This document shows positions 30,841 to 36,695 of a stretch of DNA of 64,000 nucleotides, piece after piece; within the stretch, counting starts at the first letter, position 1; every line of letters starts with the position of its first letter. A program made the position numbers and the translations under genes. This DNA is from Cyanobacteriota bacterium (GTDB lineage: Bacteria; Cyanobacteriota; Cyanobacteriia; CACIAM-69d), in assembly GCA_022402445.1 (NCBI GenBank), contig JAKRSF010000010.1, forward strand, positions 248,001-312,000, in the 5' to 3' direction. The notes beneath the pieces were generated by a model, which was not told the DNA's origin, ran no database searches, and saw only the letters and a program-made list of their open reading frames with translations.

Positions 30841-31179
30841 ATGGCGGTTATCCAATTCATTCGCGGCATTGACGAGGAAGTGATCCCCGACGTGCGGCTC
30901 ACCCGGTCCAAGGATGGTCAAACCGGCCGCGCAACCTTCTATTTCGCAGATCCGAAGTCGTTGCCCCAGTCCGTGTCCCAGGAAATCCAGGGCATGTACA
31001 TGATCGACGAGGAGGGGGAACTGGTGACCCGTGAGGTGAATGCCAAGTTTGTCAACGGGCAGCCGGCGGGCCTGGAAGCGTTCTACTCCATGAAAACCCC
31101 GGCGGCCTGGGATCGGTTCATGCGCTTTATGGAGCGCTATGCCCAGAAGAATGGCCTAGGGTTCTCGAAGTCCGAGTAG
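30841..31179 (+). CDS. psb28: Photosystem II assembly protein Psb28
   Basis: Psb28 binds PSII assembly intermediates (RC47) on the cytoplasmic side and helps chlorophyll-protein assembly. The 112-residue protein has [53 protein letters not shown] and [13 protein letters not shown], all characteristic. It lies 63 bases after the cobA-hemD fusion on the same strand, a sensible tetrapyrrole neighbourhood; the AT-rich gap may hold its own promoter. Confidence 0.97.
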
Positions 31180-31499: not shown

Positions 31500-32024
31500 A
31501 TGGCCGCCCCACCCCCCATCGTTCCCCATCCGGATCCCGCCGGACCGTTGCCGTCGCTGCCCTGTGGGGTGATTACGGTGAGCGATACGCGCACCCTGGC
31601 GGACGATCGCAGCGGCCAGGTGATTGTGGATGCTTTGGCGGCGGCGGGCCATGCAATTTTGGAGCGGGTGGTGCTGCGGGATGAACCCACGGCGATCGCG
31701 GCGACGGTGGCCGAGTGGGTGGCGCGGGGGAATTTGACGGCGATTTTGCTGACGGGGGGGACGGGCCTCGCCCCGAGGGATACGACCTATGAGGCGATCG
31801 CGGGGCTGCTGGATCGGGAAATTCCGGGGTTTGGGGAACTGTTCCGATCGCTGAGTTTTCAGGAAATTGGGTCGCGGGCCATGGCGTCGCGGGCGGTGGC
31901 GGGGGTGCGCGATCGCACCTTGATTTTTTCCATGCCCGGTTCCGCTAAAGCCTGTCGGCTGGCGATGGAGGCGCTGATTCTGCCGGAGCTAGTTCACCTG
32001 AGTCGGCTCCTGGGGGGCAGCTAG
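31500..32024 (+). CDS. moaB: Molybdenum cofactor biosynthesis protein MoaB/Mog family
   Basis: The family adenylates molybdopterin before molybdenum insertion. The 174-residue protein has CGVITVSDTRTLADDRSGQV, ILLTGGTGLAPRDTTYEA (the MPT-binding motif) and ALIFSMPGS-like TLIFSMPGSAKACR. ATG 31500 follows GGAGG at a normal distance. Its last 36 bases overlap the 3' end of the converging SLH-lipoprotein gene. Confidence 0.92.
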   Translation: MAAPPPIVPHPDPAGPLPSLPCGVITVSDTRTLADDRSGQVIVDALAAAGHAILERVVLRDEPTAIAATVAEWVARGNLTAILLTGGTGLAPRDTTYEAIAGLLDREIPGFGELFRSLSFQEIGSRAMASRAVAGVRDRTLIFSMPGSAKACRLAMEALILPELVHLSRLLGGS

Positions 32025-32945
32025 GGCGTCCTGGGCGGAAATGCCCTGGTTTTCGAGGCCGAAATACCACAGGGCCGCCGCCGCTTCGGCATGGGTCACC
32101 GTGGCCTTCGGTTGCAGGAGGGTCGTAAACCCAAAGGCCCGCCGCACGTTGGACAGTTCGCCGTTTTGGTGGTCCGCCGCGATCGCCCGCAGGGCCGACG
32201 GGTCAATCTTGGCGGCGTCCTGAAAACCCCAGGATTTTTGGATCGTATCCACCGTGGCGATGGGCAAATTCTGCCGCCAATCGAGGGGCACTTTCCAGGT
32301 GAGCAGGGTTTCGCGGGTCAGGGGGGCATCGGGCCGAAAGTCCGTCGGGCCACCGGCTCCGGCCAGGGGGCTGGGGAGGATGCCCGCTTCGGCGAGCCCT
32401 TGGATGGTGGCAAAGTCGCGATCGCCCGTGGGCACGTCCTTAAAAATCGCCGTCGCATTGGGGCGGGCGGGGCGCAGGGCTTCGGCGGGGCGGTTTTCGT
32501 AGAGGCGGTTGTGGGTCGCCAGCAGCCAGCGGGCAAAGGTGCGGCGGCTGATGGGGCGGTTCGGCTCAAACCCTAGGGCCGTTTTGGCGTCGGCCCCTTC
32601 CGCGATCGCCAGGGTGCCCAGGGCCGCCCAGTCCTTCAGGTAGGGCCGCAGGGGGTCCGGGGCCGCCGCGATCGCCCCTTCGAGATCCGTCGCCGTCGCT
32701 GGGGCCGTTCCCGTTTCCGTTGTTGGGGGAGTCGGGGTGGGTGTCGCTGGGGCCGTTGATCCGGGCTCCGGTGATGGGCTCGGAACCGGCGTGGGCGTGC
32801 CTTCGGGGGCTGGGGATGCCACCAGACGCGGATCCGGCGCGAGGGAATTTTGCAGCCGCTCCGCCAATGGCCCCCCCGCACAGCCGCTCAGCAGCACCGC
32901 GATCGCACCCACACCCCATGGAACCCAAAAATAACGAATCTTCAT
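31989..32945 (-). CDS. SLH-domain lipoprotein
   Basis: The 318-residue product has a lipoprotein signal, MKIRYFWVPWGVGAIAVLLS then GC at residue 22 (lipobox LLSGC). A Pro/Thr/Ser-rich linker (about 40-90) leads to SLH-like segments: WAALGTLAI, NRPISRRTFARWLLATHNRL, FKDVPTGDRDFATIQGLAEA, FRPDAPLTRETLLTWK and ATVTHAEAAAALWYFG. It is expected at the outer or plasma membrane surface bound to the wall. Relatives occur widely in cyanobacteria. Its 3' end overlaps moaB by 36 bases. Confidence 0.83.
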   Translation of the reverse strand: MKIRYFWVPWGVGAIAVLLSGCAGGPLAERLQNSLAPDPRLVASPAPEGTPTPVPSPSPEPGSTAPATPTPTPPTTETGTAPATATDLEGAIAAAPDPLRPYLKDWAALGTLAIAEGADAKTALGFEPNRPISRRTFARWLLATHNRLYENRPAEALRPARPNATAIFKDVPTGDRDFATIQGLAEAGILPSPLAGAGGPTDFRPDAPLTRETLLTWKVPLDWRQNLPIATVDTIQKSWGFQDAAKIDPSALRAIAADHQNGELSNVRRAFGFTTLLQPKATVTHAEAAAALWYFGLENQGISAQDALAAPQEPTQVN

Positions 32946-33078: not shown

Positions 33079-33585
33079 CTAAATTGGCTTGACTATGGTA
33101 TTAATCGGCGGCGCGCAATAGACACAGAGTTCATTGGCAATACTAACCGCTTCCTCAGGGGTTTTATCGAGATACATGGCCGTCAGGGCGAAATATTCCC
33201 CCGCCCCGATCGCACTGAACTCATTGATCTTTTCCACGAGATAGCTATCGCAAATCCGAAAAACTTCCCCCTCAATGCCAATCAAATACTCATTGCGCTT
33301 GCCGAAGGAACTGTCTTTGCTGGTGGCCCAGCTATAGAATTCCACCATGAAATCCAGCACCGACTCCACCGTTGCGGCGGCGGGCTTGTGGTTGCGGGCA
33401 AAGATTTGCATGAAGCTGAGTTCCATAATCAGCCCCACGCCACCAATGACCAGATCATTGACTTCAAATAATTTGCCCCGCTCGTCGGTCACGCGGGAGG
33501 TTTCCCGTAAATGGCCGCTCACGCGGATGCTATCGGAGGCGAACACGAGGCGATCAGAATATTTACGGGCGGCGACAACGCTCAT
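33079..33585 (-). CDS. Proteasome/HslV-like Ntn hydrolase
   Basis: The 168-residue protein resembles proteasome beta subunits and HslV. After removal of Met1 the N-terminus is Ser1 (SVVAARKYSDRLVFASD), with Asp exactly at position 17, and Lys37 (ERGKLFEV) in the place of the conserved proteasome Lys33. The C-terminal half (YLIGIEGEVF, FSAIGAGEYFALTAMYLDKT, PEEAVSIANELCVYC) matches the fold's characteristic GSG...YA and helix pair. The nucleophile would therefore be Ser rather than Thr. No HslU-type ATPase is adjacent. Partner and substrate unknown. Confidence 0.8.
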   Translation of the reverse strand: MSVVAARKYSDRLVFASDSIRVSGHLRETSRVTDERGKLFEVNDLVIGGVGLIMELSFMQIFARNHKPAAATVESVLDFMVEFYSWATSKDSSFGKRNEYLIGIEGEVFRICDSYLVEKINEFSAIGAGEYFALTAMYLDKTPEEAVSIANELCVYCAPPINTIVKPI

Positions 33586-33698: not shown

Positions 33699-34304
33699 CT
33701 AGCAGGCCCCTAACATTGCTGCCACCGCGATCGCGCGATCGGGCATGGCAACGGGCGCGATCATCTCGCCAGCCTCGACGGTCAGTTTAGTGCGATAGCC
33801 ACTGTCGCTGGGGTCGCGGTAGACCTCCACGAGGTTGGCCGCCAGGTCCACCAGCCAATATTCGCGAATCCCCGCGATCGCGTAGAGCGGCCCCTTGGTG
33901 TCGCGATCGAACCGCACCGTCGTCTCCGCCACTTCTACGATTAGCAACACGTCTTCGGGGGTTGGGTGGCTGTTGCCATAAAAATCGGCGCGTGGGGCCA
34001 GCAAGGCCACATCCGGCTGTGGCAGGCTGCGATCATTCAACCGCACGGAATTTTGGATGCTGACGACTGCGGCATCCCCAGCGGCTCGACCCAACAGGCG
34101 GTTCAGGCGATTGACGCAACCGGCGTGGCGGGCTCCGATGGGTGACATTTCGACGATCGCTCCTTCAATCAGTTCCGTGCGGGTCTCCGGTGGCAGAATG
34201 CCGACTTCGTACATGCGCTGGAAATCGGCCACCGCAAATGGGTAGACGCGCGGAATGTCGGCGCGATCGCGATCAACTGTCGGAGGCAGGTCGAGGCGGG
34301 CCAT
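33699..34304 (-). CDS. Uma2 family (DUF820) PD-(D/E)XK nuclease-like protein
   Basis: The 201-residue protein belongs to a family greatly expanded in cyanobacteria. Typical segments are RTELIEGAIVEMSPIG, QNSVRLNDRSLPQPDVALL (Asp ligand), LLIVEVAETTVRFDRDTKG (Glu-x-Glu with a later Lys) and YAIAGIREYWLVDL. The fold is restriction-endonuclease-like but biochemical function is not established. It is transcribed alone. Confidence 0.9.
   Translation of the reverse strand: MARLDLPPTVDRDRADIPRVYPFAVADFQRMYEVGILPPETRTELIEGAIVEMSPIGARHAGCVNRLNRLLGRAAGDAAVVSIQNSVRLNDRSLPQPDVALLAPRADFYGNSHPTPEDVLLIVEVAETTVRFDRDTKGPLYAIAGIREYWLVDLAANLVEVYRDPSDSGYRTKLTVEAGEMIAPVAMPDRAIAVAAMLGAC

Positions 34305-34436: not shown

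Positions 34437-36695
<2,259 letters not shown>

Follow-up and report, generated by a model that had tools for sequence, protein, structure and literature searches.

A cyanobacterial gene encodes a predicted proteasome-like Ntn hydrolase in which Lys33 and Asp17 of the proteasome are retained while Thr1, Ser129 and Asp166 are replaced together. It lies in the stretch of 64 000 nucleotides analysed here (the window; contig JAKRSF010000010.1 of a Cyanobacteriota bacterium). The protein very probably belongs to CPH (Cyanobacterial Proteasome Homolog), one of 22 new subfamilies described by Fuchs, Alva & Lupas (2021; PMC8665760), a match made by the described features and not by the sequence of the family's representative. 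It is a further member of an already named family, and Ser1, the lack of a propeptide and the lack of an ATPase partner are all documented in the superfamily. On balance, CPH is probably an active Ser-Ntn peptidase that assembles into a homo-oligomeric double ring of the BPH/HslV kind without a dedicated unfoldase. Homology, the predicted fold, the invariance of the catalytic residues, purifying selection and the failure to find HslU come from computation; we infer the ring, the activity and the substrate. No bench study of CPH was found in the literature searched, with subscription papers mostly outside the search.

The gene and its N-terminus

The open reading frame (Table 1) is real and its translation gives, after Met removal, the Ser1, Asp17 and Lys37 described in the initial annotation. 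In the window copy there is no ATG, GTG or TTG 5' of the start up to an in-frame stop 35 codons upstream, and the Met-Ser start agrees with the claim that a propeptide is lacking. Many homologues have an in-frame stop 1–8 codons 5' of the same Met. An alternative upstream start is possible in five of the 28 aligned rows (ATG at −2 in L020 and L029, GTG at −2 in L006 and L026, TTG at −11 in L005); since MSVV is kept at the start of all 28, use of these upstream codons is unlikely. Met removal is expected when the second residue is Ser, and judging from this small residue the Met of CPH is probably cleaved, which would expose Ser1.

Table 1. Features of the CPH gene and of neighbouring genes, in window coordinates
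Feature	Position	Strand	Remarks
CPH gene	33079..33585	-	168 aa + stop, ATG start; from ORF and translation
Ser2 codon (mature Ser1), predicted nucleophile	33580..33582	-	Ser 28/28; model residue 2 opens the alignment with BPH, on BPH residue 1
Asp18 codon (mature Asp17)	33532..33534	-	Asp 28/28
Lys38 codon (mature Lys37)	33472..33474	-	Lys 28/28; equivalent of proteasome Lys33 / BPH Lys37
Ala128 codon (mature 127)	33202..33204	-	Ala 28/28; at proteasome Ser129 / HslV Ser124 position
Cys154-Val-Tyr-Cys157 codons	33115..33126	-	both Cys 28/28; at proteasome Asp166...Ser169 (HslV CIYT)
psb28-like gene (presumed)	30841..31179	+	two genes from CPH
SLH-domain protein	31989..32945	-	flanks CPH on the same strand; lipoprotein-like start
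Uma2-family putative endonuclease	33699..34304	-	flanks CPH on the same strand
NAD-dependent DNA ligase (presumed)	34455..36695	+	Ala/Pro-rich stretch of ~60 residues just ahead of the ELKIDG motif

All 30 copies extracted, one of them truncated and another distant, have Ser as residue 1. For the window copy, then, neither of the two findings that would have overturned the initial annotation turned up. The lysine placed near the Lys33 position is invariant in the 28 aligned sequences and aligned with Lys-37 of BPH, with the refinement that it is mostly Lys38 in other copies because the window copy is one residue shorter. Of the HslV-like GxG turn the two glycines stand, being invariant (28/28), but the motif reads Gly-Ala-Gly against Gly-Ser-Gly in E. 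coli HslV.

Predicted fold

The window protein is unmatched in Pfam and NCBIfam at E values up to 10. When all 28 members were scanned, three Pfam families that look unrelated matched weakly (best E 0.031), and the two HslV models, neither of which the window protein reaches, were matched weakly by 16 to 17 members (best E 0.0057; for TIGR03692, 16 members and best E 0.012). PHROG_1040, labelled 'peptidase HslV family', covers residues 1–164 of the window protein with E 6.4e-16, and the CPH family profile finds BPH (E 2.2e-4) and HslV (E 0.026) among PDB sequences.

AlphaFold2 gave a poor model from CPH sequences alone (pLDDT 49), which was set aside. With 11 viral-contig relatives added to the alignment the model reached pLDDT 88.5 and pTM 0.85, the sole stretch below pLDDT 50 being residues 24–35, between Asp17 and Lys37. 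The top Foldseek match of this model is the BPH structure 5ovs (E 5.9e-11), and the best 50 of 1370 matches are all BPH, HslV/ClpQ, 20S or Anbu chains. VIA-align also places BPH first (Z 22.1 over 163 residues, 2.1 Å); HslV/ClpQ chains follow with Z of at most 19.4, and the 20S beta subunits among the matches listed score 17.5–18.5. Profile match, model, Foldseek and VIA-align all support the proteasome-like Ntn fold proposed at the outset.

Helices are predicted at residues 53–63, 73–90, 130–138 and 143–153, followed by a final strand (158–167) with no helix after it. The AlphaFold2 model is thus that of a compact group I subunit that keeps H1–H4, with no large insertion and no C-terminal extension, which makes double-ring assembly the most likely arrangement.

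Conservation and distribution

A scan of genome_contigs returned 22 relatives, all of them cyanobacterial, with identities of 72–84%; since its patterns were derived from the window protein alone, close relatives only could be found. That so many exist indicates that the window ORF is not a chance one. The genera include Okeania, Moorena (from which we take WP_008185288 to come), Symploca, Calothrix, Nostoc and Anabaena. Together with genome searches the scan yielded an alignment of 28 sequences, three pairs of which are identical, apparently the same genome reached via two tools, so that 25 are distinct. The alignment omits L009, which has an in-frame stop, L027 and L028, each with a frameshift, and L032, a distant relative at 29% identity.

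All 28 sequences keep Ser1, Asp17, the catalytic Lys and Gly50 without exception. The codon for Ser1 is AGC in 22 and AGT in six, that is always AGY, a single step from the ACY of Thr. Ten of the 11 pairs compared gave dN/dS of 0.02–0.13; for one of these, L005/L006, dS exceeds 4, and the remaining pair was saturated. Purifying selection on the gene is strong. The initial annotation had called Ser instead of Thr unusual for this fold. It is uncommon but already documented: every BPH outside Betaproteobacteria has Ser1, and so do CodW and one Anbu (PMC5777263).

The distribution is patchy. Counting the window's own genome, CPH at about 70% identity or more is present in three of six genomes of the window's own family and in four of 386 evenly drawn cyanobacterial genomes; a profile search of the same 386 added distant relatives only, for a total of six. 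Of the 22 genome_contigs loci three are broken by a stop or frameshift, which together with this rarity suggests that CPH is dispensable for many cyanobacteria. In the tree the Nostocales group together, as do Moorena and Symploca, on a backbone that is not resolved, so that the tree is as compatible with horizontal transfer as with its absence.

A phage or mobile origin was considered and set aside: scanning IMG/VR with the CPH query found no relative, and the 30 of 95 phage records listed reach 24–28% identity. Two other genes in cyanobacteria were also observed. The first, in L032 (1456–1998, − strand), is a distant relative at 29% identity that combines Ser1 and Gly-Ser-Gly with Cys at position 169, possibly an intermediate form. 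The second, a Thr1 proteasome-like gene in a different cyanobacterial assembly (L060, 1471–2025, − strand), overlaps the end of a thioredoxin-like gene by four bases and has a WhiB-like protein close by, both named by eye. A phage origin or contamination is possible for this gene.

The second catalytic triad

Besides Thr1, Asp17 and Lys33 the proteasome has a second triad. Ser129 and Asp166, with Ser169 bonded nearby, are described as protonating the Thr1 amine, and yeast beta5 is reported to stay active when Thr1 is exchanged for Ser, with a loss of 40–45% in one activity (Huber et al., 2016; PMC4792962). At the three positions CPH has Ala, Cys and Cys in all 28 sequences, as judged from the alignments and from comparison with E. 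coli HslV. The Ala is encoded by four different codons. The main text of the CPH paper makes no mention of Ser129, Asp166 or Ser169 (PMC8665760).

We compared these positions with relatives on viral contigs, where 24 loci were fetched and 11 aligned, the rest being repeat contigs, near-duplicates or partial. All 11 have Thr1; the 129 position is Ser in ten and Cys in one, Asp166 is present in nine, and position 169 is Ser or Thr in nine. The exceptions at 166 and 169 are L066 and L067, the two most divergent rows, where the alignment is uncertain. Thr1 is likewise found in all five phage or plasmid relatives, two of which (L063 and L064) have Cys at 129. E. coli HslV, our yardstick (L079), has Ser124, Cys159 and Thr162. 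Aligned by hhalign, the CVYC of CPH falls on the CIYT of E. coli HslV with E 1.6e-4 and a probability of just 50%, and the Cys pair is also aligned with the DxxS/T of the viral relatives.

With second-triad residues unlike those of the proteasome, CPH may have only a weak peptidase activity, or one of a different type. One could go further and suppose that CPH is a specific acyl transferase or amidase and not a general peptidase, which we consider possible but unlikely. In Ser-Ntn acylases the N-terminal amine is the base. With Ala/Cys/Cys in place of residues that protonate the Thr1 amine, the amine of CPH might be less protonated and act as such a base, or the acyl-enzyme might be handed to an amine as in connectase; the uniform Ala/Cys/Cys of the 28 sequences against mostly Ser/Asp/Ser-or-Thr in the 11 viral-contig relatives would fit this. 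Connectase, a protein ligase without H1/H2 and with a two-helix insertion, shows that the chemistry of the superfamily can be switched (PMC8665760), but CPH has no such insertion and keeps H1/H2. Moreover, a Cys at the Asp166 position does not keep E. coli HslV from being a protease, the 129 position varies elsewhere, with Cys in L063, L064 and L066, and there is no clue to a substrate. In the same vein, and with little confidence, we suggest that CPH may have swapped Thr for Ser as its nucleophile and exchanged the second triad in full, shifting towards Ser-Ntn acylase/acyl-transferase chemistry, with the invariant Cys near Ser1 possibly a redox-sensitive element in a phototroph.

CPH is a natural test of the proteasome's insistence on threonine and on Ser129/Asp166. 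Its activity would tell whether proteasome-fold catalysis depends on the second triad or whether that triad marks a change to another reaction.

Partner ATPases and genomic context

No HslU over the cut-off was found in the 20 cyanobacterial genomes searched. In none of 16 CPH-bearing genomes did an HslU match reach E 1e-35 or pass the cut-off (the control was positive in 5/14), and none had HslV over the cut-off; G015 has one sub-threshold HslV match, away from its CPH locus. The look for co-occurring ATPase genes that had been proposed therefore came out negative for HslU. The remark that no unfoldase is adjacent also holds, no AAA+ unfoldase having been recognised by eye in two ORFs on each side of CPH at 15 loci. 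The P-loop ATPases near CPH in these 15 loci are ABC-type (L005, L012) and, in one lineage, a STAND-like P-loop NTPase, identified by eye (L006 1–879, − strand; L026 7123–8868, + strand). L006 and L026 carry identical CPH.

In all 20 cyanobacterial genomes there are AAA+ proteins, presumably ClpX, FtsH and ClpC, with sub-threshold matches to the HslU profile, and a partner role of other Clp-type ATPases is possible. CPH might dock to such a housekeeping unfoldase (of ClpX, ClpC or FtsH type) and act as an ATP-dependent protease, and its short pore loop of 12 aa is nearer to the unfoldase-gated HslV than to BPH. We think this distinctly improbable: besides the absence of HslU from the 16 genomes and of a recognisable AAA+ gene beside CPH at the 15 loci, CPH is patchy while HslU-like ATPases occur in all 20 genomes, and no co-occurring AAA+ interactors were reported for the new homologs (Fuchs et al., 2021; PMC8665760).

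Neighbouring genes were compared all-against-all over the ORFs of 32 loci and of the window from 26 to 40 kb. Among the 40 largest clusters common neighbours are mostly lineage-bound (Nostocales; the Calothrix group; Moorena; Okeania; Symploca). Among the same clusters, sharing across lineages is limited to the following: the window has a psb28-like gene in common with Moorena-type loci and ABC-type ATPases in common with L011 and L012, a transposase-like gene recurs in L009, L010 and L021, and a glycosyltransferase-like gene in L007, L009 and L010. Since the neighbours differ between lineages, CPH is best viewed as a stand-alone gene; an operon partner was rejected, no neighbour being common across lineages in an operon-like manner. 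The psb28-like gene is adjacent and convergent to CPH in L024 and L030, 2.3 Mb from it in G228, and on a separate contig in G001, G003, G013, G015, G048 and G148. Where the two genes lie close together, we regard this as coincidence or as a remnant of old synteny. Further along the window, the Ala/Pro-rich stretch of the presumed ligase looks to us like an insertion relative to other ligases.

The genome of the window also encodes an Anbu elsewhere (L038), matching a designed Anbu protein with E 1.7e-84 and 5nyw with E 3.2e-70. A Rubisco activase (L038 133–2241; G000 C13 at ~395.9–398.0 kb, outside the window) lies 33 bases upstream of this Anbu on the same strand, with Pfam AAA, activase helical and Rubisco small-subunit domains. 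This pairing of an AAA+ ATPase with a proteasome homologue was seen in one of ten Anbu loci, whose flanks are short.

Proposed mechanism

In the peptidase ring that we favour, methionine aminopeptidase would expose Ser1, which Lys37 and Asp17 would activate for attack on peptide or amide bonds, leading to an acyl-enzyme, while backbone groups near Gly50 would form the oxyanion hole. The subunits would assemble into a homo-oligomeric double ring like those of BPH and HslV, which could trim peptides or unstructured or unfolded proteins with no need of a dedicated unfoldase. A non-catalytic ring with a binding or structural role would suit the loss of the second-triad residues and the three broken loci among 22, but is highly improbable given the invariance of Ser1, Asp17, Lys and Gly50 in 28 of 28 sequences and an N-terminal Ser directly after the start Met that mere binding would not need.

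Comparison with known systems

BPH (Thiobacillus denitrificans, 5ovs) is the best fold match to CPH, at ~19% identity to the window protein. Its description gives Lys-37, equated with proteasome Lys-33, Gly-50 and Ser-139 (PMC5777263); the first two have the same numbers in CPH, and a known unfoldase is absent there as for CPH. The same source reports that BPH is inert on standard peptides and casein, yet its Thr1 reacts with epoxomicin. The acidic pore loop of Td-BPH has 17 aa and a net charge of −5, whereas the pore loop of CPH has 12 aa and 0 to +3 (28/28), and where BPH has Ser139 beside the nucleophile CPH has Ala (28/28). Membership in BPH therefore fails on the short, non-acidic pore loop after H2 and on the replacement of Ser-139.

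HslV (ClpQ) has its fold in common with CPH, and Cys is found at the Asp166 position in both. However, E. coli HslV has Thr1, Gly-Ser-Gly and HslU as a partner; in CPH there are Ser1, Gly-Ala-Gly and no HslU found. Membership in HslV fails because the TIGR03692 cut-off is not reached and HslU is found in none of the 16 CPH-bearing genomes.

The viral PHROG_1040 proteins, which we infer to be of PPH/AAH type, match CPH as a sequence family and have the same catalytic triad positions, but with Thr1 against Ser1. PPH lacks helix H2 (PMC8665760). It was ruled out on this and on its length of ~140 aa, CPH having 168 aa and a predicted helix at 73–90. Anbu, with a C-terminal helix H5, was ruled out by the terminal strand (158–167) of the CPH model, and connectase by H1 (53–63) and H2 (73–90), which leave no space for a two-helix insertion between S3 and S4.

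This leaves CPH as described by Fuchs et al. (2021; PMC8665760), who placed 27 sequences at nr90 in group I with BPH, HslV, AAH and PPH, found propeptides confined to proteasome beta and HslV, and gave WP_008185288 as the representative. Their Table 1 marks columns beyond Cyanobacteria for CPH, whereas the present scan found cyanobacteria alone. Otherwise no difference emerged in this comparison by description rather than by the sequence of the representative: the cyanobacterial distribution, the compact group I subunit with H1–H4 and no extension, the Ser/Thr1-Asp17-Lys33 triad, and the lack of a propeptide and of an ATPase partner are the same, and the oxyanion Gly47 is present in 28 of 28 aligned sequences.
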